Part shown: one piece after another, positions 5,626-58,392 of the stretch | Position numbering within the stretch: the stretch's first letter is position 1 | Layout of the letters: every line of letters begins with the position of its first letter | Assembly (NCBI GenBank): GCA_028753945.1 | Contig: JAPNXP010000002.1 | Span: forward strand, 5,518,001 to 5,582,000 | DNA length: 64,000 bases | Direction of reading: 5' to 3' | DNA from: Hexactinellida sp. DTS-2022 | Lineage: Eukaryota > Porifera > Hexactinellida | Notes under the pieces: generated by a model | Told to the model about the DNA's origin: nothing | Database searches by the model: none | The model's input: the letters and a program-made list of their open reading frames with translations, nothing else | Program-made: the position numbers and the translations under genes

Positions 5626-6351
5626 AGTCAGATTTGTACTGTCAATAGGCCAAGTCTGACCTCAAAGGGTTAGAACTGTGAAGGTTTGCATTGTAAAGTT
5701 TAGTTCCAGAGTCATTCCCAAATTAAATATATATTCATTAGTTTCCACTAGGTTTCAAACAATTAGGATATAAATTGTGAACGCTTTAGCAATTAAGGCC
5801 CCTCTTTGGTTAATTTGTAATTTTTAATAATATTGAGTTTATTTCGTTTTATTAGTTATGATACTCGGGAGGATAATATTGGAAAATTTGGCTTAATTCT
5901 GAGTTGATTTGAAATCAATAGAGCTTAGTGAAATCTGATACTCTATGTTTTTCTGAAATTTTAGTGTTAGTTTCAATTACAAGAATGATCTAATTGAATT
6001 TGCAAGTCTGTAACCTAATCCTTTGGGGTTATCACTATGCAATATATTATTCTAAGTAATACTAGAATGTTCTAAGATCAGATTACTATGTAATTATAAT
6101 CTTATTGTCTGATAACAGTCTCAAGGGAATTTTTTTCTTTTTCTTATTGAGTCATTTTCTAAGAACTAATTACAAAGTTCAATCTATTTTTATTCTAAGT
6201 ATTCCAGGTATATCTAATTATAAATTTCCTACTCTAAATACATCATTCATTGCTACCATTGTCAATTATATATATAATACAATTCTAAAGTTTACAATTA
6301 CACAAAACCTTTTCACATTTTGAACACCAATTCATATTTGAAATAAATTCA

Positions 6352-9300
6352 ATGGCTCGTCGGTATGTCTCCAGTTCTTCAGAAGATGAACCTGTCATAT
6401 CCGGCTACAGTTTACGTTCAACATCAGGGGGTATTCTAAAGAGGGAACAAACAAAAGACGAGTTCCGAAGCTCTACCCCCCCCTTGACCCCATTAGGTGG
6501 CCCCGAAATACCAAGAAGCAAGACAGTTTCTTTTGAGAAACCTACAAAAAATGTTGATGGGAGGTCTAAATTCCCTGGATCGGCTACTCAATATCCTCGC
6601 TCTCCATCTGATCCACTCGCTGCTAGAGGTGCTAGACGCTCGCGTATTCCTGCTCCTACTAAGCCGTCGAAGGCACCAGTGACTCGATTATTTTCAAACA
6701 TCGCTAGCAAACTCGCACCAACACACACTGTTGAGACCAAATTTATCCCTCCCATGGCTCCTAAACCTAGTACAACTGAGGTTTATTCTCAAAGATATCA
6801 ACCAGAACTCTATCCTACGCATTCAAGGGACACCAGAGTTTCGCGCGCATCCACTCCGCCCTTGGATGGACCTCAATATAGTCCTACACTTGAATCGCGA
6901 CCGTATACACCTTTGTTTTCTCAATCTAGTATACCTAATTCACCTTCATTTGAAATACAAACCCCAACCCCATTGGGATTCTCTTACACTATGACACCCG
7001 ATACACGCAGGGACTTTAGGACGCCAACTCCATTGAACCCACAGGAAAGCATACTCCCTAGTTCTCCAATTGATTTGGGTCGTTCGGCTACATTCTCTGG
7101 AGCTACCTCTCCACAACTAAGCATTCCTGAGAGTTTGAGTCCTGACTTTACTGAAAGAATGCAAAGCTTCGATTTGGAAAGAGAAGATTGGACAACCCAT
7201 CAACAGAAAAACTACAGTGGCAGTCGAAAACGTAAATTCTTCGGCAATCAATTCATACGAAAACGACAGCAACTCCCTGCAAGTCCACCAGCACCTGCCA
7301 TTCAACCACCAAGAACGGCATATTCTCCCGTCCCGGTCAATATGCCCCATTTGCAACCCCCGGCTGAAAGGAAATTGCAGTATGTGCAAGAAGAGATTGT
7401 ATTCACTCAAGCTGAAAGAGAATCTCAATTAGGAAATGAAAATTTCATCATAAACATTGCAGTCTTCCAGAAAATCTTCAACGATATGACAATGTGCAGT
7501 GTCTGTCAACGGGGTAATATAAAAATAGTCGAGAAAGATTTCAAATCGGGTTGCGCACTCTATATTGTCATGGCATGCAACCATTGCAAAGTACGAAACA
7601 GTTACTGGACTGTAAGTGGAAAATTCCAAGAAAAAATACAAATCGGCGACAAACGCATTGCAAAAAGAAACTCGCTGGTTTATAGTTCCATTTTGGGAGG
7701 CCGCCTCATTGGGATTGGGCATAATAAACTTGTGCTCTACCATTCGGCTATGAATTTACCCTTGCCCTCCTCAACCTCTAGCTTTGTCGAAGCACAAGCT
7801 GATTTGATTATAGCAGCGACTTTCATAGCTCAGCAATCAATGGATCTAGCCACACTTGAATTGAAAAGAATGCAACACCTCAGCAATAACGAATATCTCC
7901 GAACAATGGTGTCGTATGATGGGGCATACCAGCAACGGTCTGGAAAATCAGGTGGAGGCTTCAGTCGCTACTGCTTTGGTGCAGCCATCTCTGTTGAGAC
8001 AGGAAAGGTGTTATCCTACGGAGTTGCTTGTAATTCTTGCAGAATTTGCACAGATTATGCAAACCAATACCGCATTGGAGCAATTTCTTACGATGAATTG
8101 CAAGAAAAAAAGGAATTGCATGAACCAAATTGTTCTGCCAAATACTCAGCTTACGCATCTGTGCAGCTCGAATCTGCCCTAGCTCCATCAGTCGTTCGAA
8201 GTGCCCTCTCTAGAAGGATTATATTTTCCGGGATAGTAACTGATGGGGACAACAAAACCTACGATGTATTGCGACAAGCTGACCTCTATCACGACGTCGG
8301 TTGTGATATAGAAAGGTTCGAATGCTTGGCCCATGTGGCAAAACGCCTCAAAACTAATCTTTGTAAGGCACAAGAAAAGACTTTGAAATCGCATAGAACA
8401 GAAAAGGAAATTCAGAAACGTCTAATGTCTGCACAGTCAATCCCCCAGCGCCAAATTACTAAAGAACTAGGTTCATTCAAAGGAAAACTACGAAAAGATT
8501 CCACCAAACGTGCTGTCTGGGGCCTGCAGCAATCAAAAGCTATTCTAACAATTAGCGATGCTACTGCAGCACAAATAGCAAGCTATTACAAACTGGCAGT
8601 AAAAAGAAATCAAGGAAATGTACGAGCGATTATTGAAGCCGTAAATGCAATACCATTACACCTCTCTGCGAATGATACCAATGCAGATGAACACCATCGG
8701 CTCTGTCCCAAAGGTGAAAACTCTTGGTGTCGATACAAATCAGCGTTGTCAAAGGGTATTCCAGTCCCGAAGCACCCAAACTACCTAAGCCCTGATGCGG
8801 CGAAAGTAATTGAAAAAGTCTTCAAAGACTTCGGCTATAATACCCCAAAGTTCATCGAAAAAGTGCAACAAGGACATACGTCAAACCACAATGAATCTTT
8901 ACACAGCATTCTTTGGACGATGGTGCATAAAAATGAGTATGCAAGCACCGAGATGATGGCATTGGGCGCTGCATTAGCTGTCATAAGATACAATGATGGA
9001 TACCAAGGGATCAGGAACTTGTTTGAATTGATCCAAGTCCCAATTTCAACACATTTATCCCAAGTATTGCACCGAATGGACAGAAAAAGAGTGATGGAAA
9101 GTCATAGAATTATTTCCGAACAAAAGAAAAGATACGCGAAGAAGCAGCGCAGAGGGAAGAAAACAACCGAACAAGTCGAAAAACATGGTCAAGGATACGC
9201 TTCAGGAAAATATTCTGCGGCTCAATCCCAGTATAGAGGCTCGTCATCTGAATCTGATGAAGAAATGCATGGAATAATTCCTTTACGAAAAATCGCTTCA

Positions 9301-9534
9301 CCATTACCCGTTGAAAATACCGATAGTTCATGTATATTGTGTGGGGGGACTGAAGAAGACTGCATCGTTGGGATGGGGATTGGACTGCAACTAGCTTATA
9401 ACGATATCCTGTGGATTCAATGCACATCCTGTGCCAGCTGGTACCATATGGAGTGCTTGGGGATGGAAAAGGGCGACATCGGAGCAGAAGAAGACTGGGA
9501 TTGTGAAGTATGTACATGCCAAAATGACGATTGA
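6352..9534 (+). CDS. Kolobok / Mutator-like transposase with PHD finger, 1060 aa
   Basis: This is a single uninterrupted frame. Residues 1-360 are rich in Ser, Pro and Thr with a basic patch SRKRKFF near 291-297 (likely nuclear import). A zinc-ribbon-like pair follows (C382/C385 and C409/C412). Next is the RNase-H-type core with YDGAYQQR (D523), TDGDNK (D631 and D633) and SNHNESLH (E848); these are my candidates for the DDE catalytic residues. Between the second and third, CPKGENSWC and the spacing agree with the animal 'Mutator-like transposase' family that includes Kolobok. From C994 to the end is a PHD-type finger (CILC, then CTSC, WYHMEC, CEVC), a domain that commonly reads histone tails. 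Such a finger may bias target choice; that is inference. The Met at 6352 is the first in this frame close to the left end. The expected role is excision and TTAA insertion of its own and related elements. Confidence 0.85.
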   Translation: MARRYVSSSSEDEPVISGYSLRSTSGGILKREQTKDEFRSSTPPLTPLGGPEIPRSKTVSFEKPTKNVDGRSKFPGSATQYPRSPSDPLAARGARRSRIPAPTKPSKAPVTRLFSNIASKLAPTHTVETKFIPPMAPKPSTTEVYSQRYQPELYPTHSRDTRVSRASTPPLDGPQYSPTLESRPYTPLFSQSSIPNSPSFEIQTPTPLGFSYTMTPDTRRDFRTPTPLNPQESILPSSPIDLGRSATFSGATSPQLSIPESLSPDFTERMQSFDLEREDWTTHQQKNYSGSRKRKFFGNQFIRKRQQLPASPPAPAIQPPRTAYSPVPVNMPHLQPPAERKLQYVQEEIVFTQAERESQLGNENFIINIAVFQKIFNDMTMCSVCQRGNIKIVEKDFKSGCALYIVMACNHCKVRNSYWTVSGKFQEKIQIGDKRIAKRNSLVYSSILGGRLIGIGHNKLVLYHSAMNLPLPSSTSSFVEAQADLIIAATFIAQQSMDLATLELKRMQHLSNNEYLRTMVSYDGAYQQRSGKSGGGFSRYCFGAAISVETGKVLSYGVACNSCRICTDYANQYRIGAISYDELQEKKELHEPNCSAKYSAYASVQLESALAPSVVRSALSRRIIFSGIVTDGDNKTYDVLRQADLYHDVGCDIERFECLAHVAKRLKTNLCKAQEKTLKSHRTEKEIQKRLMSAQSIPQRQITKELGSFKGKLRKDSTKRAVWGLQQSKAILTISDATAAQIASYYKLAVKRNQGNVRAIIEAVNAIPLHLSANDTNADEHHRLCPKGENSWCRYKSALSKGIPVPKHPNYLSPDAAKVIEKVFKDFGYNTPKFIEKVQQGHTSNHNESLHSILWTMVHKNEYASTEMMALGAALAVIRYNDGYQGIRNLFELIQVPISTHLSQVLHRMDRKRVMESHRIISEQKKRYAKKQRRGKKTTEQVEKHGQGYASGKYSAAQSQYRGSSSESDEEMHGIIPLRKIASPLPVENTDSSCILCGGTEEDCIVGMGIGLQLAYNDILWIQCTSCASWYHMECLGMEKGDIGAEEDWDCEVCTCQNDD

Positions 9535-13788: not shown

Positions 13789-14485
13789 GGTTCAGGTATC
13801 CTCTAGAGTACTTCTACCATAAGTATTTACCCGAATTAATTAATTTTTTTACAGCGGATTTACTTGATCCTCAGGATGCCAAAAATACAATAATATTGGC
13901 AAATAAACTAATAGAGGAAAAAACTTTTTTAAATTTTACCATTTTTACGGAATAGATCAATCAGAAAAGATAAACAATACCAAGAATATTATGATAAAAT
14001 GTGTTCAGCAGGATGTAATATAACTTTTGAGTACAGGAATTGTGAATATCTACATTTTTCTGGATTTCAAATACTTTTATGTGATGTCGATTTTCAAATG
14101 AAGATTTTGCTTATCCAAAATCCAAAAAACAGATGAACTATTCATATTAGGGTAAATCGCAGCACTGAAAAGTTGTATCTTTACGAGATCTCTCCGAAAC
14201 CGTTGAGTTTTTGATTCTACGACCAAAATTGACAAAATGACTTCTTCCACAATTCTGAAAATGTTAGTTTTGAGATAGCGGCTTTTGAAAAAAAAATTTA
14301 CAGCAATTATTCCTAAATTGAGGTGACCAAAGTGTGTCAAACTGGAAAGATAATAGGAATCTTTCTTAGAAATCTCTTGAGATTACTCATTGGTATCAAT
14401 ACAATCCCAAAATGCAATAAAAGAGAAATAGACAATGATTTGGATTTTTTCTAAATATTCGAAATTTGTAGAGTATACCTGAACC
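13789..14485 (-). mobile_element. TTAA MITE, GGTTCAGGTAT family, complete copy (697 bp)
   Basis: TTAA is present on both sides (13785-13788, 14486-14489). The inverted ends are GGTTCAGGTATCCTCTA and GGTTCAGGTATACTCTA. Another near-complete copy is at 54026-54724 and partial ones at 22021-22433, 24291-24544, 44264-44866 and 62915-63327. Open frames shared by the copies (about 87 residues) are low in complexity and match no family I know, so I treat the family as non-coding. Confidence 0.9.
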
Positions 14486-14489
14486 TTAA

Positions 14490-14780
14490 TCTTATGCAGC
14501 ACTAATTTCATGTTTTCATAGCTTTCCTTCAAATGTACTGAATGTCCAATTGGGATGGAACTAAATTTGTTACCATTATGAAGTAATACACATTTCAAAC
14601 TTTGTTTTGAGCTATCAATAAAGAGTCTCCATTCATCTTGTACATATGGACACCCGAGAGCGTTAAAGAAAAAAACTTACTCTGCCCAGATACCAAATTT
14701 TATTCATACAGAAACAGAGAGATCGATTTTTTGAGATACTTTGTAATGGAAGATGATTTTGTGTTTTGTCATGATGTCTC
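14490..14780. pseudogene. Two opposed scraps of an unnamed transposase-like gene
   Basis: On the minus strand 14490-14640 reads WRLFIDSSKQSLKCVLLHNG then KFSSIPIGHSVHLKESYENM. On the plus strand 14645-14780 reads FLRYFVMEDDFVFCHDVSGL. From memory, both belong to one family of repetitive 'uncharacterised' proteins found in many invertebrate genomes, where the second block normally lies just before the first on the same strand. Here they face away from each other, so a small inversion has happened. I cannot name the superfamily. Confidence 0.45.
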
Positions 14781-15619
14781 AGGGCTAGTTAAGGCTCGAC
14801 CCACACCTTCACTAATAACGTCCCCTTTAAATCCAAACATATATCAGTTTTAGCCTTATCTATAATGATAACAAATCCGCAATCAAAATCGAATTCGAAT
14901 AATATTCGCTCGAGTAATTGATTTTAGTTCCATATTACGTAATAATAAATTACTATACCTGACTGAAAATATTCGCGCCCGTAGTTTAGAAAAACCACAG
15001 AAGTTTAATTTCTGATCTATCTATACACAGTGGGAATTTAGGTGGAAATAGGATAAAATTATCATTCTCTTGAAACTTGAATTCGTGCTTACCAGTGAAT
15101 TCAGAATATCAAATAACCAAGTAATGCATAATTTCATTCTGATCTAAGAAAATTTTTGGTTGTTATGACTATTCAAAGTACTAGATTTTTGACAATTGGA
15201 ATTTCTATTTTGCGGTTATAGAAAGTTACTAATGCTTCATTGCATATTTTGAGAACACTGTTCTTCAGAATTACTTCTCTTTTGAATATTCTGATATACA
15301 TGATTTAATTATATATATTATATATCATAATAACATCTCAGTATAAATTGATTATGTGATGTGGCTAACGGAAAATATACGATTCGGACAATAAATTCTT
15401 GCTTAGTCCCCCTCCTTCAAGATGATGGGAAATATCGTGTCCAGGTTTATGCGGTTTTTTTTGTGTTTTTAATATAAAGTATACATATTTAACTTCAATA
15501 TAAACCAAATTCCAGATGCGCAAAACTTTGCCCACAGATATTTTCTTTTATTATTAATTAATTTATTAAGATAAGTGATTCAAGTACAAATTATACTCCT
15601 TCAATTAGAATTATTTCTT

Positions 15620-15890
15620 ATGAATAACAAGGAAGCTTTTGAATTCCTAAGCTCAAAATCATCTATAAGGGATGCTGCCACCTCATTTTTAGACACATTC
15701 AGACTGAATGAAGACCAGTACCATCCCATCCGACGACTATTTGGACAGCTAGAGGTAGACAGGACTCACTCCAGAAAGAAGAATGATCTTTCTAATTGGA
15801 ATAAACTTCAATTTTATAATGATTCTACCACCACCATTGAGAGAGAACAGAAATGTGTGGATAGTGATATTCATATTAGTATAAAGTTAA
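15620..15890 (+). pseudogene. Transib transposase, N-terminal part before the insertion
   Basis: The frame from ATG at 15620 (MNNKEAFEFL; an in-frame ATG also lies at 15575) runs through IRRLFGQLEVD to HISIK and is broken by the TTAA element that starts at 15891. Counting from 15620 to the duplicated TTAA (271 nt) plus 17123-18978 (1856 nt) gives 2127 nt, exactly 709 codons with the stop. The ancestral gene was therefore in frame across the target site and read KLIKARKPFSELTIKGQ there. The KPFSEL-type motif is what Transib proteins usually show at this place. The region likely corresponds to the N-terminal part of the RAG1 core-like protein. Confidence 0.8.
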
Positions 15891-17118
15891 GGATGCTTGC
15901 CGCCAAAAGTGTATTAGCCCTATGGGTAGTTTTACGATTATTTTGGATATTGAGTTGAAATTCTCCATTATTGCCTGTAATAGCCCAACTAAGCATATAA
16001 TCATGACTTTTGAACTTTTTATGAGCAATTTTCAGAATTCCATCATATTACGTGGCGGATGGCTTCCTATCTCCGTAATACTAAATATTGTATAGGCGTA
16101 GAATATTATCATAAAAACTGTTAGAGCTCAAGTTCTAAAATTTGCTGAGTATATACAGCACTACTATAGGAAGAAAATTGACCATTTTCAGACTGATCCA
16201 TTGACAAATATTTATTTTGGATATAAATACCCTAAACATGCGGACATTAGTTCGAAAAGATCGATTTTTAGCCAATTTTTCTTGGACATGTCACGCAATA
16301 TAAGTTCGTTTTGTTCAATCAAGGTCAAATATATAGTAACCGTTATATACTAATATGTGCCAAATTTTTGGCGACTTTTGATATGTATTTTATAAAAAAC
16401 AATTGGTCAAAGGTCAGAAATCTCTGTTTTGAGTTTCTAAGGGTCAAAGTTTTTCCGAATAAAACACTCTCTAACTAAGATATTACAAGGTGTTTCATCC
16501 CTGTATGGAAGGAGTATGTAAGCTTTTATTCGTACGATAAGCTTTACATGTATTCAGTCATTGTTCGTAACTAAATGACTTGATATATATCCATTTATGC
16601 AAGTCCACTTTATTTTGGGACACCAGCTGGAAAAGGAATTTGATGTAATTGGCTATGAGAATTGTTCGAAATTCAACAGAAAGTTCATTCCAGCAATGTT
16701 TTGAACTACTATGTACATGCACCATGTATATGTGTGGAATCTTTCAATTGAATTGCTGTATATCCCAGAATAATTAAAATGATAGTCACCATAGAGATTC
16801 GAACCCATAACCTCAAATATACATTCTCCATATGCTTTCCACCGTGCCGTTGATACATATTAGTTATATATGAACTGATATTAGTATCAAAATGCACATA
16901 AATAACCATCAATGGTGATAAATGTGAGGAATGTTCACATAATCACCGATGTCATCAAAAATGACGTCACTAATAATGCACTTTTGAGCAAAAATATTCT
17001 AGATTTTTGAAAATTTGCACTTCCAACAGAATTCCGGGTTATTTTTGCATGTTATTTCACAATAATCGACACTTAATTTTTTGTAGTTAAATACCGGATA
17101 ATTTGGCGGCAAGTATCC
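15891..17118. mobile_element. TTAA element, GGATGCTTGCCGCC family, copy 1 (1228 bp)
   Basis: It sits inside the Transib transposase gene with TTAA on both sides (15887-15890, 17119-17122). The inverted ends are GGATGCTTGCCGCCAAA and GGATACTTGCCGCCAAA. It is a reverse-oriented relative of 22678-23910 (for example 16709-16912 equals the complement of 22887-23090). There is no recognisable protein. It also contains GTGACGTCATT-type palindromes near 16955 (mirror near 22830). Confidence 0.9.
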
Positions 17119-17122
17119 TTAA

Positions 17123-18978
17123 TTAAAGCTCGTAAACCATTTTCTGAATTGACCATTAAAGGTCAAAAAGCGCGACTAACCCCTCTTCTTTCCCTGATTC
17201 ATACCATTGCTGAGAAAGAAGCTGTAGACAGTATAACGATCGCTGCTCTCGCCATGCAGTTTGTTTCTAGCTCTGCAGGTGACAATAAAATTAGTGGTGC
17301 TTGTAAGGAGGTTGTTCAAAAAGGCACATTTCCAAGTGGTTCAAAGAAAAATATTTCAGTTGAGAAATCGACCTTCCTTCTCTCCCAACTTGATATTGGT
17401 AAACGGAAATATGTAGATCTAAAAAGAGTTTGCAAAACAGAAGGCGTTATTTTTCCTGGCTATAAAGATCTAACTCTATATCGTAAACATATAACTCTCG
17501 ACCATGAACTGAAGACTATTCGTAATCAATCTGAGATCTCAATCGGAATAGGAATATCGTATAAGCTTATAATAAAACAAACGATCTCTAGATTAATAGA
17601 AACTTTACCAACATTGAGTAATTCTCACTTTCCTCTAATATTTACAGCAACAGATGGTTTGGATGGATCTGGATCTCATCAAGTCTACAACCAACTATCA
17701 TGTTTATCTGACACTAAAAGTTATCTACTATTCGCTTTTAAGCCTCTTTCCATTAAAGATACCTATAACAATATTATATGGGAAAACAAAACTCCCAATT
17801 CTCACTTTCAAATCCGACCTGTTTTGTTATTATCAGTTAAGGAAAACGAAGAGAACGTCCGACACTTAATGGAAACTTTAATAAATCCCGAGGTTTCAGA
17901 ATTAAATCAGAACGGTATACACCTGGAGCAAGGTTTCGTAAATGTAGTAATAGAGCGGAGTATGTTTGATGGAAAAATGGCTGGAATACTCTCTGGAGCT
18001 GGTGGTGCTCATTGTCAGCTTTGTACAGCTAATTTTAATCAATTACACGACCTAGAATTAGTTCATACTGGATTCCCAATAAATAGGTCAATAACAGCGG
18101 CGAAAGAAATTTTCTCTGAAGTAGATAGAGATGAATTCTTATCTCTTCCTTCAGTCAAACGATTTGGATTGACACATGAACCGATTTCTGATATCAATAT
18201 TATTTGTGCATCACCTCTTCACGCATATACATGTATTTTCCGATGGTTTATGACACTTGTATACCACTTACAATCTGGACTGATAAAATGGTCTCCATCT
18301 TCAATGAAAGTTAAAGATTCCATGAAGTTTACTCGTAGCTTCTTATTTGAGAAAACAGGTCTTAAGATTGACCAACCTAGTAGTGATGGAGGTACTACAT
18401 CAACTGGAAATATAGCCCGTCAGTGTTTTTTAGATAAAAATGAATTTATTCATTGGGTTTCGACACTTCTACCAGGTAAATTTCATGGCACTCTGAAAAC
18501 TATTCATAACAATCTTTCGGTGATCCTACGGATATATAATAGCAGTTGCCAAATTAATACCGAATCTCTCGACACATTATGCAGAGATACTTATGAATCT
18601 ATCCTCATTCATTACCCTTGGGCCAATATTACGCCAACTCTGCATAAAGTCCTCGCTCATTCTTGTGAATTAATACGAGAATGTAACAACTCCCATGGTT
18701 TAAAAGATTATTCTGAAGAAGCTGTGGAGGCATGCAATAAATTGATCAGAAAGTATCGTGAGCACTTGGCCAGAAAACAATCTTTTGTTCTTAATACCCG
18801 TGATATATTTGTTCGGCTTTTATGTGGTAGCGATCCAGTCCTCAATACATTTAGAAAAACGTACAAAGATTGTGGTGGTACTGATAGTTGCTGCAAAGTA
18901 ATATCGTTGACTAGTCCATCCCTGACTAGTCAAGATGAGATATTTGCAAAGTTAACGTCGGTTGACTTGAATATTTAG
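17123..18978 (+). CDS. Transib / RAG1-like transposase, catalytic part
   Basis: The open frame runs from 17123, and its first Met is at 17149 (609 residues from there). Numbering from 17149, the features are: ATDGLDGSGSHQ (D169); MFDGKMAG (D274) followed by CQLC (C289, C292); LHKVLAH (H499, H504); and SEEAVEACNKL (E527). The C-x2-C and H-x4-H spacing and the SEE..E.xNK block match the RAG1 core, where D600, D708, E962 are catalytic and C727, C730, H937, H942 hold zinc; the assignment is by motif only. The tail RKYREHLARKQS parallels the RAG1 end. The catalytic core is undamaged, but the N-terminal end is separated by the insertion at 15891-17118, so this copy is probably inactive. No RAG2-like (Kelch) gene is seen in the element. 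Confidence 0.85.
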
Positions 18979-19545
18979 TGTATGTGAATTAACTAATTGT
19001 AAATTTCTTACCCATGGTCAATACTATTGATAACAATCATGGGTGAGTATTAAAAATTATTAACCAACCAAAATATTTGTTTTCAATGATATTCCATTCG
19101 AACGTCCAGAACTACATCTAGGAGTTAATAAATATTACTTTTGATGATTCCATTCTGTTTCTAGGTACCAATAACCTATAGGTCAATAATACTTGAAATG
19201 TGGGTACCTGCTACGGAAATGCCTATTTCCAATTACTACCCAAAAATTCCCACTGTGCTATATTTATTCAATACATATACTAGTGTAAATCGCTAAGCTA
19301 TAGGATAGTCAATTTAAATGCTTACTATAGAATTTTTAGTATTGAAAGTGAAAACTCACTATGATTCATGATTATTTTGCAATTTTTCTATTAAACGCTT
19401 ATAACAATTCTTCTGAAGCATTTGAAACTTATTCCATGGCTTCAGGTTATCAACAGGTATCCTCTGAATAATGCTCAACACTAAAATCAATATATACTTG
19501 AAATAATTTTTTGAGCTGTGGGCGCGAGTGGGTGCGACTCTACTG

Positions 19546-21256: not shown

Positions 21257-22016
21257 CAAATGAATGGAAAGGAAATAGCAGCACTCTAGAAGAAAGTAGA
21301 TACCTCCCGAAAAGGTTTGAACTCCTAGAAAGGAAAGTGGAAGCATTCTTCAAAAAACTGGACTGCTTAAGGTCAGTAGTCAATAATATCTATACAGAAA
21401 ATGCCGAAATGAGCTGGCTAAGTGAATTTAGCGAAAAATAAGAGAGCACTATACTAAATATAGTCACGAAGTTGATTTAGACGTGGGAAGTGAAGTCGAA
21501 ATACAGACAAAGTAGGATTCCTTAATTTAGTTTTGTTGACTTAGTATTAACCAAATTTAGTGTAAACTCTTTATATTATATACTTCATGTTTCACCATGT
21601 ACGTTTATTATATACTAAATTTTATTCTAATCTATCTATATATTAACAAATAGCAACTGAACTGAATACGTGTAATTTACAAGCCACAGGTATTAACATA
21701 TTTATTATGAGTGATATTTAAGAGGCGTGTAAGGCCGCGAAGGGACCGTTAATTGTTTTGCGTAGTGTCTAACAAATGAGCGATCTTTGTGCGAGTGATT
21801 CGGTTCGCGTAGCGACCGAGACCGAAGGGCTCGTGTCTTAATAGATCTCTAAGGAATAGATAGTATAATTAAGTGTAACTGTATCTGATTATAAGTATAT
21901 GTTTAAATAGAACTATATGGCACCATAATACAATGTTTGTAGTTTTAAATTCACAGCCGACTCCGCTTAATAAAGTAACCTCGGGACAGGTTATTTTGAT
22001 CCGATTAAAGGAGAAA
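21257..22016. other. Non-coding, with a short GC-rich patch
   Basis: A 65-residue frame after the TTAA element (21258-21440) has no recognisable family. The patch 21720-21845 (AGGCCGCGAAGGGACCG, GCGTAGCGACCGAGACCG) is GC-rich against the AT background and has no coding frame. It could be the edge of a further element, but I see no paired ends. Confidence 0.35.
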
Positions 22017-22020
22017 TTAA

Positions 22021-22433
22021 GGTTCAGGTATACATACTCTACAAATTTCGAATATTTAGATAAAATCCAAATCATTGTCTATTTCTCTTTTATTGCATTT
22101 TGGGATTGTATTGATACCAATGAGTACTCTCAGGAGATTTTTAAGAAAGATTCCTATTATTTTTCCAGTTTGACACACTTTGGTCAACTCAATTTAGGAA
22201 TAATTGCTGTAAAATTTTTTTTCAAAAGCCGCTATCTCAAAACTAACATTTTCAGAATAGCGGAAGAAGTCATTTTGTCAATTTTGGTCGTAGAATCAAA
22301 AACACAACGGTTTCGGAGAGATCTCGTAAAGATACAACTTTTCAGTGCTGCGATTTACCCTAATATGAATAGTTCATCTGTTTTTTGGATTTTGGATAAG
22401 GAAAATCATCATTTGAAAATCGACATCACATAA
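22021..22433 (+). mobile_element. TTAA MITE, GGTTCAGGTAT family, left part
   Basis: It begins GGTTCAGGTATACATACTCT after TTAA (22017-22020) and follows the family until GACATCACATAA, where the Tc1-like MITE begins with TA at 22434. The other part of the family sequence lies reversed at 24291-24544. Confidence 0.85.
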
Positions 22434-38674: not shown

Positions 38675-40867
38675 ATGGATTCCTTTGTGAAGAGAAAGCG
38701 TTACGAGATTGAAGTGGAGAAGCCAGAAGCAGCTCAGGAATTCGAAGGAGAAGATATAATAATTGATTAACCTGAAGATATTTCCTCTCCCGACCCTAAA
38801 CATACAAAAACGGAGCAGGATATCTCTGTGGAGGGCGTCCCAGATATCGCACATAATCTGTCTGAGGATCCGAGACAGCCGAAGTTGATCACTTATAAGC
38901 AAACTAGGTTAGGCGGTCAGATGCGTTGCTTTCAAAAAGGGTGGTACATTGGCAGACCTTGGCTTGAGTATTCTCAAATAATCGATGCCCTATTTTGCTA
39001 TCTTTGTAGGTTATTTCAGGTAGCTGGTGCTGGTCCTGAGTCAAAGTGGACTTCCCTAGGTTTTGACAATTGGAAAATTGCGATGGAGAAGATAAAGGGC
39101 ATCAAACTTCATGAGGAGTCGTTTTCTCATCTTGATTCAATGCTCAAATGGTCAGGATACAAAGATAGTCTTCGTACCGGAAGCATTGAAGTCATTGTTA
39201 GAGCACTGAGCGTGCAAGCTCTTCGTGATAATCGGCACTATATCAGAACAGTAAGTCAGGTAATCACTCTCTGTGCTGTACAAGACCTTCCTCTCAGAGG
39301 TCACCGCGAGGGAAGATTGGTGGATGATATGGGTGAAGTCATTGACCCTGAGTTCAACTGCGGATCTCGAAACAGAGGGAATTTTCTCGAGATTCTTAGT
39401 GCGTTTTGTGTCCACGACAAAACTCAACCGACCTAGAAATGCTCAGTATATTCATCACTCCGTCCAGGATTCGATTTTGTCCATTCTTGCCAACTCTGTA
39501 CGCCAGAATATTCTAGAAGAACTCAAGACAGCGAAATATTTTCTTTGTTGGCGGACGAATCTAGAGATTGCGGGAAAATTGAACAAATATCCGTTTGTGT
39601 AAGATATATCTGCGAGGGTGTGTTGCACGAAGATTTCTTCAACTTCGTCAGAGCAGAGCGGTTGGACGCGAATTCGATCATGGAAAAGCTGAGTAATCTT
39701 CTGTCAGTTATGGGTGTCTCCTCTCGTGATCATATGGTTGCCCAATGTTATGATGGTGCTTCAACAATGAGTGGACGACTACGGGGTCTACAAGCACTTA
39801 TGAGGAGTAACGTGTGCCCGATGGCCTTATATGTGCATTGCTGGGCACACAGGCTCAACTTAGTAGTAGTTGCTTGCTGCCAAAATATCGACAAAGCCGT
39901 GTCATTTTTTGCGAGCATTCAACAGCTCTACACATTCTTCTCATCATCAGTTCCACATGATTTCTTCGAGAAAACGCAGAAAGTCCTGGGTAGACATGAG
40001 GCGCAACATCGTGAATTGAAGTCGTTATCTAAAACTCGCTGGTGCTTTCAAGCCGAGGCTTGCTCTGCTGTGGCGCTTACTTTAGGTGCAATCATTGCTG
40101 CTGCGGAGCATTTTGCTCATGATACATACGCAAATAGAAGAGCTGCAGCACAAGGTATCGTCAATTTTATCGATACTGACTTCGTAGTCTGTCTTCAATT
40201 ATTCAGAAAAGTTCTGACACTAACTTCATATTCGGCGAACTATATGCAGGATAAACACATGGATATTGGCATTGCAGTTAATCACATTGATACACTCAAG
40301 ATGTCTCTCTCTGGTGAGGATTTGTTTGATGAAATCTGGGATACCGCAAAGGCACTCTTAGATGAACACGCGATACCACAGCCAATCGAAAAACGCCGTC
40401 GAATATTTAGAGATGATGCTGCCGATGCTAGAGTGTGGGTCAAATCGGACTACAAAGTTAGATTATTCGATCCAGTTATCAGACTCTTCATAGAGGAACT
40501 TGATAGACGCTTCAGCAAGGACACGTGTTCCGTGCTTTTGGCGATGTCAGCTCTGATTCCCACATCTGAGGATTTCCTTAAGATCCATGCAATGAAGTCC
40601 TTTATTGAGCACTATCATCTGAATGAGGAAATGCTAAATAGCGAATTTACTGTGTTTTCCAATCAATATAGAAAGGCCAATCCACAGTTGAAAACGATGT
40701 TAGAGGTGATTAACTTTATCGAGCCACACAAAATGGTGTACACAGAACTCTACAAGACCTACCAGATAGCATGTACCATCCCTGTTACAACAGCTAAAAA
40801 TGAACGATCCTTCTCTTGTATGAAACATGTTAAGAAGTATCTTCGGAGCACCATGGATGATGATTGA
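38675..40867 (+). pseudogene. hAT transposase, ZMYM1/TTF-type zinc finger (broken)
   Basis: The start is ATG 38675 (MDSFVKRKRYE). An N-terminal acidic/basic linker precedes the TTF-type finger RCFQKGWYIGRPWLEYS with ALFCYLCRLF (about 38920-39015). Then comes the catalytic domain with ADESRD (first Asp, about 39548), AQCYDGASTMSG (second Asp, about 39745), HCWAHRLNL and SKTRWCFQ. The hAT dimerisation tail is IPVTTAKNERSFSCMKHVKK at 40780-40840. It has one in-frame stop near 38768 and a pair of compensating frameshifts (about 39400 and 39540); otherwise the frame is open. In intact relatives the protein cuts and pastes the element. This copy is probably inactive but not old. Confidence 0.85.
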
Positions 40868-53764: not shown

Positions 53765-55292
53765 TAGGGGTGGGGAAACCTTTAAGGCCGCGGGCCAAAA
53801 TGGATAAATGTCATAGTGTTGCGGGCCTGAGAGTGAAGATTTCTTATTTAACACATTTTTTATTATATTTCAAGTAGCATTAATGGAGAAATAAACGATG
53901 ATACTGAGGAAGTATAAACTAATCTAATCACATATTAGGAAGTAAAATAACTAGTGGATGTTGTGCAGTTAATCCTGCGTTTTTATTAGCTTATCAAAAT
54001 TTGGTTCTCTTGCTGAAGTTATTAAGGTTCAGGTATACTCTACAAATTTCGAATATTTAGATAAAATCCAAATCATTGTCTATTTCTCTTTTATTGCATT
54101 TTGGGATTGTATTGATACCAATGAGTACTCTCAAGAGATTTCTAAGAAAGATTCCTATTATTTTTCCAGTTTGACACACTTTGATCACCTCAATTTAGGA
54201 ATAATTGCTGTAAATTCTTTTTACAAAAGCCGCTATCTCAAAACTAACATTTTCAGAATTGCGGAAGAAGTCATTTTGTCAATTTTTGTCGTAGAATCAA
54301 AAACTCAATGGTTTCGGAGAGATCTCGTAAAGATACAACTTTTCAGTGCTGCGATTTACCCTAATATGAATAGTTCATCTGTTTTTTGGATTTTGGATAA
54401 GGAAAATCTTCATTTGAAAATCGACATCACATAAAAGTATTTGAAATCCAGAAAAATGTAGATATTCACAATTCCTGTACTCAAAAGTTATATTACATCC
54501 AGCTAAACACATTTTATCAATAATATTCTTGGTATTGTTTATCTTTTCTCATTGATCTATTCCGCAAAAATGGTAAAATTTGAAAAAAGATTTTTCCCCT
54601 ATTAGTTTATTTGCCAATATTATTGTATTTTTGGCATCATGAGGATGAAGTAAATCCGCTGTAAAAAAAATAATTCATTCGGGTGAATAGTTATGGTAGA
54701 AGTACTCTAGAGGATACCTGAACCTTGATACACATAAGCTGAGAAATGTACTCATTTGTCAATGCTGATCTTGACATATTTTTGATAAACTTCATCATAC
54801 CTGCCAATTAATCGTACAGGGTTCCCTGTCCTGTAAAAGAATTTTAAACATTTTGGCTATTCTGTACAGGCGTACAGGGATTTTTAATTAATAATTATTT
54901 GTAATATTGCCTAAAATGTCTACAGATGTGATAGTAATTTCTGCCATGCATTCTGCATTGACTACATAAGGCACAACTTTGTTTCTATATTTATTCAAGT
55001 GTATAATAATTCCCTGGACGAGCGAGCGAAGCGAGCGAGATATATTTGGGAGGAGATTGAACTCTAATCTCGTTTTCTGCTAGAACTCGCCATTTCAATT
55101 TAGGTTCTGCCTCCTACGTTTTCTAATAATATCTAATAATTGATAGAATTCGTAAATGCAAACTATAGTTACAAAATACTGTATTCAAACTAGGAACATT
55201 GATGCATTTGTAGAGTATATATAATTGAAAAGAAGCGAATTATCCGCGGGCCACAGCGAATGGTCTCGCGGGCCACGGTTTGAACACCCTTG
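53765..55292. mobile_element. hAT non-autonomous element (1528 bp) with nested TTAA MITE
   Basis: Left end TAGGGGTGGGGAAACC; right end on the other strand CAAGGGTGTTCAAACC. It is flanked by a perfect 8-bp duplication CATTAAAC (53757-53764, 55293-55300). GCGGGCC words lie near both ends. It contains the GGTTCAGGTAT MITE at 54026-54724. No transposase remains. Confidence 0.88.
54026..54724 (+). mobile_element. TTAA MITE, GGTTCAGGTAT family, complete copy (699 bp)
   Basis: TTAA on the left (54022-54025) and TTGA on the right (54725-54728). Ends GGTTCAGGTATACTCTA and GGTTCAGGTATCCTCTA. It closely matches 13789-14485 in reverse. Confidence 0.88.
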
Positions 55293-55702: not shown

Positions 55703-58392
55703 CAGGGTTCCGCAAACTTTTATTCATATCAGGCCACATAATCTTAACAAAATTTTCCTCAGGCCGCATCAAAATTAGTGTTGTAGGTCGGGAAATTTCT
55801 TTGGAAATTTTCCGGAAATTTCCGGAAATTTTACATGGAAATTATTATATTACCTAGTTTTTTTAATTTCATAAACCATATCAATAATGTAGAGTTGTTA
55901 CTGTGCGCTTGTTATTTTCACTCATGACAGTCTAACTTTAGTAGCACAAAAACTTTGGCTATTTCAAATAAAGTTCCTAAGCATAATTTGTAATATATAA
56001 TCTTTCCAGAAATTTCCATAAGAAATTTTTTTTTGGGAAATTTACAACACTAATCAAAATATCTAGAAATCTTTCGAAATTTATGACAAAACTATTTTGT
56101 TGTAATACTAGAACTATATTAATTGATAAGCAAAAGTGCTCAAAGGACTCTAGTCAAAAGGTAATACAGTTATGATAAAAGTAATGACAATAATATTTAA
56201 TTTTAATGAGAGGGGTGGATTTGTCCTTTTCTTGCAATTTTTTCAAATTGTGGTGAGTAAATTGTCACTGCAGCTTTTATTAGTTCGGATGTGTGATCTG
56301 GTGTAAGTTTATTCCTTGTTTTTGACTTTACTGTATTCATCACGGAAAAAGTTACCTCGCAACAGTATGTTGAGCCAAACATTGACAGTACAATTTTCGC
56401 CAGATTTCTCAGGTTTTTCTGATGCACTTGATTCCAGAATAATGTAAGATGCTCAGCGTTTCTATGTGTTCTTTTCAGCACATCATTCGACTGAATTTCA
56501 ATCAACTCCATTTGGCATTCGGCCAGGGTTTCTTTCGATATGAATAGTGTGCATTCACTTAGTTCTTCAGGAAGAATAAGCCAAGGATCTGAAACTAAAG
56601 TAAATGCAGTTTTTTGGGCTCTGAAATCACTGAAACGTTTTTCAAATTCATTTAGTAAATCTTCAATACATTTGGTGTGCAGTTCCTGCTGATTCAGTTT
56701 CCATTTCTTATCTTTTAATAATTGTAATCTCTTAAAATGAGTAAAGTCTCCCGATTTTAAGTGAGCAAGAAATAGACGAAGTTTGTTTACGAATGAAATT
56801 ACATTTGTAAACATTTCAGTTACAATTTTATGTTTCCCCTGCAGTTTCAAATTTAGGACATTAAGGTGTTCAGTTATGTCAGCTAAAAATGCCACATTTT
56901 CGATCCATGCTTTATCCTCAAATTTATTCAAGATATTACTTATTTTGTTTGGCAAAACACTACGCTCACTCAAATATGTTTTAATTGGCTCAAACAGATG
57001 GAAAAAATGATCAAGGACTAAACCTTTAGATAACCATCTCACTTGTGAATGATACACCAATTCACGATAATGTGTATCATACTCATTGAGTAGTTCCCGG
57101 AATTGGCGATGATTCAAGGCATGTGAACGAATAAAGTTGATAATATCAACAATATCTTTCATCACCTCGTCAAACATTTCTGCGTGTAAAGCCGCCAGGT
57201 TTTCTTGGTGTATGATACAGTGGTAAGATAAAATGTTATTTCGTGTCTCGTCATGCATTTTAAAGAGAGTGGTGAAACCTGCTGTTCTACCAATCATTGA
57301 AGGAGCGCCATCGGTTGTAAGAGAGTATATCTTTTCGATAGGAATATTGAACTTGTGCAGTGTTTCCATAACACAATTGAATATATCTTGTCCACGCGTT
57401 TGACCTGTCAGCGGATAAAGATGGAGAATATCTTCTGTTACTCTGAAATTGTTATCAATGAAACGAATAAATATACAACACTGTGCAATATCTCTTACAT
57501 CTGTACTTTCATCAACAGCGATTGCTATCGCATCACTACCGGCCGCATCATAAGAGATCTGTTCATTGATATTAAAAATACACGATGAGATACGGCGTGT
57601 TGCAGTATCAGCTGACAGAGGAATATCGTCTATCTTTCTAATCAACTTAGTTTCTTTGCCATCAGCTATCTCTTCAACAATAACCTTGGCGCATCGTTTT
57701 ATCAAATCCACGTCAGAATACGCCTTCTGAGCTTGAGCAACCATCCAAGATACTTTCATTGATGCAATATTCCCACAAAGATTTGCATCACCACTATACG
57801 TTCTAACCATCAGCTTCTGAGCTGCTAATTTGGCCGACTTAAGGAAAGCTACTTTGGCAAATCGGACTGAAGTATTTAATGGGTATTTGTCATTGTATAT
57901 GATCTTGTGCTTTGCTGTATAGTGTTCATTCAAATTACTTCGCTTCATAGAGGAAATCGTTGAGTCACAAATTAAACATAAACAGGCGTGATTATGTTCA
58001 ATCACAAAAAATTCATCTTCCCATCCGGGATTGAAATTCCGTGACTCATCAAGCAGCTTTCGTTTCTTCGCAATCATTTAGTTTTAGTCAAAACGAAATC
58101 ACTAGTATATTCTCTAATTTAATACGCATAAATTAAATCTTACTAAAGTATACAGGCATGTAGTATCTGTAGTTTATGGGAATATAATAAAAGTGTTATT
58201 TATAAAGCTAGTTGTGTCCATCATTTCCTGTTTACTAGTACATTAATCAGTGTGTATTTGTGTACAGCCCAGATGAAAATTAGAAATGTCTCTCAGGCCA
58301 CACATGATACAAATTTCCATTGGGCAATCAGGCCGCACATAAGGTTGTTTCAGGCCGCATGCGGCCTGAAAAACCTAGTTTGCGGAACCCTG
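55703..58392 (-). mobile_element. hAT element, GTF2IRD2/Charlie type, apparently whole (2690 bp)
   Basis: The inverted ends CAGGGTTCCGCAAACT are perfect over 16 bp and are flanked by a perfect 8-bp duplication TTCTAGAC (55695-55702, 58393-58400). CAGGCCGCAT-type words repeat near both ends (three on the right, 58317-58365; two on the left), likely transposase-binding sites. It carries one uninterrupted gene on the minus strand. All parts needed for movement appear present, which suggests a young insertion. Confidence 0.93.
56203..58077 (-). CDS. hAT transposase, GTF2IRD2/FAM200-like, 624 aa
   Basis: This is a complete frame. Residues 34-57 form a C-x2-C-x14-H-x4-H finger (C34, C37, H52, H57) for DNA binding. 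The RNase-H fold holds AIAVDESTD (D189), SLTTDGAPSMIG (D256) and YHCIIH (C287, H290), the standard hAT order with its inserted helical domain after them. The last ~70 residues carry the hATC dimerisation region (STYCCEVTFSVMN, LTPDHTSELIKAAV). Closest in style are the Charlie-type transposases that also gave rise to vertebrate GTF2IRD2, FAM200 and SCAND3. The start is the first Met after the right-end subterminal repeats. No stop or frameshift is seen. Its job would be excision and insertion of this element and of non-autonomous relatives with the same ends. Confidence 0.9.
   Translation of the reverse strand: MIAKKRKLLDESRNFNPGWEDEFFVIEHNHACLCLICDSTISSMKRSNLNEHYTAKHKIIYNDKYPLNTSVRFAKVAFLKSAKLAAQKLMVRTYSGDANLCGNIASMKVSWMVAQAQKAYSDVDLIKRCAKVIVEEIADGKETKLIRKIDDIPLSADTATRRISSCIFNINEQISYDAAGSDAIAIAVDESTDVRDIAQCCIFIRFIDNNFRVTEDILHLYPLTGQTRGQDIFNCVMETLHKFNIPIEKIYSLTTDGAPSMIGRTAGFTTLFKMHDETRNNILSYHCIIHQENLAALHAEMFDEVMKDIVDIINFIRSHALNHRQFRELLNEYDTHYRELVYHSQVRWLSKGLVLDHFFHLFEPIKTYLSERSVLPNKISNILNKFEDKAWIENVAFLADITEHLNVLNLKLQGKHKIVTEMFTNVISFVNKLRLFLAHLKSGDFTHFKRLQLLKDKKWKLNQQELHTKCIEDLLNEFEKRFSDFRAQKTAFTLVSDPWLILPEELSECTLFISKETLAECQMELIEIQSNDVLKRTHRNAEHLTLFWNQVHQKNLRNLAKIVLSMFGSTYCCEVTFSVMNTVKSKTRNKLTPDHTSELIKAAVTIYSPQFEKIARKGQIHPSH

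Follow-up and report, generated by a model that had tools for sequence, protein, structure and literature searches.

The Subgroup I Transibs, which are described as having a zinc region of RAG1 length and asymmetric bipartite ends, have been proposed as possible intermediates in the origin of the 12/23 asymmetry between vertebrate recombination signal sequences (RSSs) (PMC9435367). According to the same source, the alpha11-alpha12 stretch is kept in Subgroup I Transib and in RAG1L but lost in Subgroup II, whose members have symmetric and asymmetric ends, so asymmetry is not exclusive to Subgroup I. PMC8289069 gives most Transib families symmetric terminal inverted repeats (TIRs) and ProtoRAG spacers of 27/31, and PMC8355894, following Kapitonov and Jurka 2005, reports that a small number of insect Transibs are asymmetric in the 12/23 manner. 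The ends of AanRAGL of Aureococcus consist of a 13-bp element, spacers of 4 and 13 bp, and a 10-bp element (PMC9435367). Here we describe a Transib element at 15026-19257 of a 64,000-nucleotide stretch (the window; ~34% GC) of the glass sponge Hexactinellida sp. DTS-2022 (contig JAPNXP010000002.1, positions 5,518,001 to 5,582,000), together with its relatives in the same genome (112.4 Mb searched, 18 contigs, the longest of 17.6 Mb). The element is related to the transposons that underlie the recombination of antibody genes, and within that family it probably belongs to the more RAG1-like branch.

We consider it very likely that the window element is a Transib, a DNA transposon that moves by cut and paste, and that it is of the type called “Subgroup I”, which is RAG1-like; it would have one gene and lack RAG2. 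It shares with the Subgroup I Transibs, as matched by their published description (PMC9435367) and not by sequence, the single RAG1-like gene, the 5-bp duplication, the asymmetric bipartite ends, and the RAG1-sized zinc region.

Termini and their asymmetric layout

The window element is closed by a 14-bp inverted repeat without mismatch (15026-15039 and 19244-19257), which reads inward as CACAGTGGGAATTT on both sides and carries the RSS-type heptamer CACAGTG at each tip. It is bordered by the 5-bp target site duplication CTATA on the left (15021-15025) and on the right (19258-19262), so that both the heptamer tips and the perfect duplication claimed in the original prediction were recovered. 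A sibling copy (L002) has both ends, the same tips, and a duplication of its own, CGATG; another insert, of ~500 bp, lies close to the 5' end of this copy, and its 3' spacer is 1 base longer. Throughout the genome, exact 5-bp duplications were present around 19 of the 24 elements with both ends located, the ends having been chosen partly by duplication match, at first from no more than two candidate pairs for each element and in a later run from more. Nine elements with an end not credibly located (L003, L004, L005, L047, L053, L054, L057, L061, and L073) were not counted, nor was L065, which had one mismatch and a poor 5' tip. The other copies share the ends of the window element and have 5-bp duplications, rather than showing different ends and no duplication.

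At the 5' end, the outer 13-bp element CACAGTGGGAATT (heptamer plus 6; 15026-15038, + strand, in the same register as the 3' end) is followed by the 4-bp spacer TAGG and the inner 10-bp box TGGAAATAGG (15043-15052, + strand). At the 3' end, the outer element CACAGTGGGAATT (19245-19257, - strand) is followed by the 13-bp spacer TTTGGGTAGTAAT and, in inward reading, by the same box (19222-19231, - strand). This layout of 13 bp, then 3-4 bp (5') or 13 bp (3'), then a 10-bp box can be read in 12 families drawn from elements with both ends located. “Family” is used loosely here, DNA comparison having covered four pairs, and the families are not fully independent because they are related. Further family members (L002, L007, L058, and L062) and non-autonomous elements (L066-L072) were left out, and L045 was replaced by L064, which is alike at both ends and has a 5' end 4 nt longer.

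The outer 13 bp of the two ends of the same element agreed at 10 to 13 of 13 positions. Fitted within spacers of 3-4 and 13-14, the parse was 4/13 in seven families, including that of the window, and 3/13 in five, and the fitted boxes agreed at 8 to 10 of 10 positions in nine families. In a scan free to choose among 37 shifts, the best shift of the inner box between the ends was +9 or +10 in 10 of the 12 families. The box is family-specific yet common to both ends: the mean own match was 8.92 of 10, compared with a mean of 6.88 and a maximum of 8.5 over 100,000 re-pairings of ends and with at most 5.83 over 1000 base shuffles. With 11 families, earlier runs found +9 or +10 to be the best shift in 8 and the own match to be 9.73, against no more than 9.64 in 100,000 re-pairings. 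By this anatomy, the 3' box would sit 9-10 bp deeper than the 5' box, roughly one turn of the helix, so that the two ends of a pair would be built unlike each other in spacing, as are 12 and 23 RSSs.

Vertebrate RAG1 and its 12/23 RSSs share with the window element the CACAGTG heptamer, the catalytic core, and two signals whose spacing differs by about one turn. They differ in the ACAAAAACC nonamer at 12/23, absent from window-type ends, and in RAG2, for which no match was found in the genome by a search without positive control. The original prediction had proposed looking for a 12/23-type spacer and nonamer; when the ends were scanned by spacer against shuffles, the canonical nonamer was not found at 12 or 23 bp. 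There was no excess at spacers 22-24 at either end, and among spacers 11-13 only the 5' spacer 11 rose above its 95% line (3.50 versus 3.25). At the 5' ends, scores above the any-spacer 95% line of 3.58 occurred at spacers 20 (4.17), 19 (3.75), and 21 (3.67); the 3' ends reached 3.75 at spacer 1, compared with 3.42 for 95% of shuffles. The 13 + 4/13 + 10 parse of the window element is that of AanRAGL, which, in contrast, encodes RAG1L and RAG2L and has different element sequences (PMC9435367).

The transposase and its placement

The transposase coding region is in two pieces, parted by a 1,236-bp insert. The N-terminal piece (15620-15886, + strand), an ATG at 15620 and 89 codons, was recognized by its likeness, judged by eye, to the starts of two other loci (L046 and L056), and stands outside the 16-protein alignment used below. 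The main piece (17119-18978, + strand; 619 codons plus a stop at 18976-18978), supported by its open frame, Pfam, and alignments, contains an RNase H DDE core, a zinc-binding region, and a degenerate C-terminal tail, and its start weakly matches the RAG1 nonamer-binding region. The transposase had been called near-complete, which holds insofar as almost all of the coding pieces are present; they are split by a nested transposon, however, and do not form one frame.

In the numbering of the 17077 frame (633 residues), alignment places the catalytic residues at D196 (17662-17664), D298 (17968-17970), and E551 (18727-18729) and the zinc ligands at C313 and C316 (CQLC, 18013-18024) and at H523 and H528 (HKVLAH, 18643-18660), all on the + strand. 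All 16 aligned proteins of this genome keep these seven residues unchanged, and D193 as well. D196 aligned with D126 of HzTransib, whose catalytic numbering was taken from PMC6941560, and with the first D of RAG1, the aspartate of its DGMGDVS. The triad originally proposed, D169/D274/E527, corresponds by spacing (105, 253) to D193/D298/E551: its second and third members align with catalytic positions 2 and 3, whereas D193 falls 3 residues before D196, the aspartate aligned with the first. The C-x2-C and H-x4-H zinc ligands, likened to those of RAG1, were rightly predicted. A single-sequence structure model of the 633-residue frame had a pLDDT (predicted local distance difference test) score of 34 and was not used.

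Similarity puts the core within Transib/RAG1, the assignment made originally. The best solved match of the main piece was HzTransib (PDB 6pqn; E value of 2.6e-25), followed by the RAG1L of ProtoRAG (PDB 6b40; 6.7e-8) and RAG1 (5.7e-5 at best), and Pfam RAG1 was matched at an E value of 3.7e-7; a profile of 16 proteins from this genome gave 1.3e-46 for HzTransib, 4.5e-19 for RAG1L, and 4.1e-15 for RAG1. HzTransib resembles the window element further in its DDE and zinc ligands and in having no RAG2, but its TIRs are called symmetric in PMC8289069, whereas the ends of the window element are asymmetric. The proteins also differ in how far the first zinc histidine lies beyond the second zinc cysteine: 207 residues in both the window protein and mouse RAG1, compared with 202 for ProtoRAG and 165 for HzTransib. 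Judged by length and alignment, the extra stretch of the window protein would lie at the alpha11-alpha12 position of PMC9435367.

The element could instead be a RAG1L (RAGL) transposon that has lost its RAG2L, or an early RAG1L branch, and not a Transib at all. Such an origin would suit the RAG1-length zinc region, the zinc motif in some relatives' tails, and the ends, which are bipartite and asymmetric as in AanRAGL (PMC9435367), and ProtoRAG shares with the window the DDE and zinc ligands, the long zinc region, and asymmetric ends. ProtoRAG is unlike the window element, however, in encoding a RAG1L and RAG2L pair, and on trimmed columns the window protein was more similar to HzTransib (28.9% identity, 342 sites) than to ProtoRAG (23.3%, 399 sites) or mouse RAG1 (19.7%, 390 sites). 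In an unrooted tree with long branches, built from the 16 proteins of this genome plus a single representative each of Transib, RAG1L, and RAG1, ProtoRAG paired with mouse RAG1 at a support of 100 to the exclusion of the window family; the tree is compatible with an early RAG1L branch and says only that the window family is not within the RAG1L and RAG1 pair. With the empty RAG2 search, albeit one lacking a positive control, also standing against it, we regard a RAG1L origin as unlikely. The original suggestion that the place of the element between Transib and RAG1-like families was worth settling was a fair hunch, given its RAG1-length zinc region and its ends; identity is nonetheless highest to HzTransib, and the family stands outside the ProtoRAG and mouse RAG1 pair.

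Less probable still is a Subgroup II Transib of the usual insect kind, to which HzTransib belongs. No solved protein is closer than HzTransib, and asymmetric ends also occur in part of Subgroup II (PMC9435367), but the zinc region of HzTransib is 42 residues shorter than that of the window protein. Among 18 proteins of this genome, the cysteine-to-histidine distance was 207 to 217 residues in 17; for the remaining one, the search pattern had misfired.

Several observations weigh against the placement as a Subgroup I-type Transib with asymmetric ends. Subgroup I was assigned by characters and not by clade, and the unrooted tree, which has no bacterial or Subgroup I reference, grouped HzTransib, RAG1L, and RAG1 together (support of 95) apart from all 16 proteins of this genome. 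Unlike in the Subgroup I description, the window copy has a degenerate C-terminal CCGHC (CTT1) tail, and in some relatives this tail is x5-spaced. The RAG1L tail motif Cx2Cx3GHx4C, as given in PMC7204232, was found in its strict x4 form in none of 18 proteins, in an x5 form in 6, and in a looser form in 8; some relatives' tails would thus appear to end in a RAG1L-like zinc motif. At the ends, the fitted boxes agreed at only 5, 5, and 6 of 10 positions in L050, L052, and L063, respectively; L050 and L052 did not have +9 or +10 as the best shift; and L045 in the earlier runs had a best shift of +14. Five of the 24 elements (L007, L008, L058, L068, and L071) had no exact duplication.

Scans of genome and viral contigs with the 16-row profile found no relative; their peptide patterns were very family-specific, so bacterial Transibs are not shown to be absent. 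Neither the scan of viral sequences with the window protein nor a tblastn search of L056 against plasmids and phages yielded a relative. Elsewhere in this genome, a more diverged Transib (L061; G000:C2:3227200-3231400) with a 698-amino-acid frame and no C-terminal zinc tail had the best Pfam RAG1 score in its comparison set.

Copies in the genome and a proposed mechanism

Among the best 40 of 71 candidates were at least 7 further loci of the window family; compared across portions of the coding region, their DNA identity was 88-96%. The Transib protein search, in which the best 70 of 1,027 candidates were scored, returned at least 74 matches at 42-100% identity (the window copy included, and some copies counted in two matches), at least 13 of which lay in open frames of 711 to 757 codons without an internal stop. 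Two pairs of paralogues were 99.35% and 99.2% identical. The sample of autonomous loci leans toward young copies, as most loci were chosen for long open frames. Among the siblings of the window family recovered by the protein search, no uninterrupted gene was found, because they carry stops in the coding region.

Although the many paralogues with long open frames might recall a host gene domesticated from Transib, that idea can be set aside with near certainty, as these frames are bounded by heptamer ends and exact duplications, copies that are almost identical occupy different genomic places, and the window gene, cut by an insert, contradicts it for the window copy.

By DNA comparison, a non-autonomous Transib relative of 1,166 to 1,169 bp shares the initial 632 bp of the window element (15026-15657, + strand). 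Among the best 40 of 140 candidates scored with this 5' stretch, six copies of the relative were 97.6-98.1% identical to it. Eight copies were cut out, five of which had exact duplications, and five copies of equal length were 99.0-99.8% identical to one another. Such near-identical copies with duplications indicate that ends of this design moved recently; presumably, they were mobilized by an enzyme made elsewhere.

By analogy with characterized relatives, transposase subunits would pair the 5' end with the 3' end; a nick and a hairpin at the heptamer edge, as described for HzTransib in PMC6941560, would then excise the element, and insertion would follow with a 5-bp stagger. The anatomy of the ends suggests that each would be contacted twice, at its outer 13 bp and at its inner 10-bp box. 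We put forward, as a tentative idea that may well prove wrong, that RAG2-free Transib transposases obey a 12/23-like rule, in which an end is paired with one whose inner box is offset by a helical turn, with a family-specific box that co-evolves at both ends, and that the 13 + 4/13 + 10 layout predates RAG2 capture and was the source of the 12/23 asymmetry. This kind of element is already known from PMC9435367, and a set of such families in one genome is useful: a dozen of them, with both ends readable, boxes matched, and recently moved copies, offer natural test cases of RAG2-free end recognition.

The nested insert and other repeats

The insert that parts the transposase gene (15887-17122) is a non-autonomous element of the piggyBac type, bounded by TTAA and by inverted repeats of 21 bp. 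Of its 29 near-full copies cut out from the best 40 of 152 candidates, the window's included, 28 were at 97-100% identity and the other at 84%; TTAA stood at the start and the end in 27 (the exceptions being L030 and L037). Siblings L002 and L004 are continuous across the same TTAA, without the insert; sibling L007 also lacks it and has lost ~135 bp directly after the insert site. The recurrence of TTAA-ended copies and the empty sites in these three siblings point to a non-autonomous element of this type having inserted into a Transib copy. Apart from the transposase pieces, the only frame of at least 80 amino acids in the window element is one of 83, inside the insert, with no Pfam match. 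Because the piggyBac-type element landed in the gene, the window copy cannot make the transposase as one chain; with its ends intact, it could in principle be mobilized by the enzyme of a relative.

Copies of the nested insert are clustered: 20 of the 29 near-full copies (again from the best 40 of 152 candidates) lie on the window's own contig (C11), between 2.66 and 10.25 Mb, although this contig makes up 13.8% of the genome (binomial P of 1.9e-11). The contig may hold a poorly recombining region. Four contig ends (L039 and L042-L044) have a long common sequence, as judged by eye, and no simple telomere repeat was seen in the inspected parts of 400 bases. Searches for the cuticle domain, SL1, and let-7 gave no match, their controls being silent too, and COX1 gave none although its control responded in 8 of 14; a class A GPCR suggests an animal genome.

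Other repeats share the window with the Transib element. Three similar open frames (14077-14676, - strand; 21879-22433, + strand; and 53973-54434, + strand), likened by eye, mark an unclassified repeat; the frame at 21879, the one of the three that was searched, had no Pfam match. An open frame of 1,081 amino acids (6289-9534, + strand) encodes a Mutator-like transposase with a C-terminal PHD finger. A hAT-type transposase with a Spin-doc zinc finger occupies an open frame of 624 amino acids (56203-58077, - strand), and a second hAT is spread over two frames, 38771-39436 (without a Pfam match) and 39437-40867.

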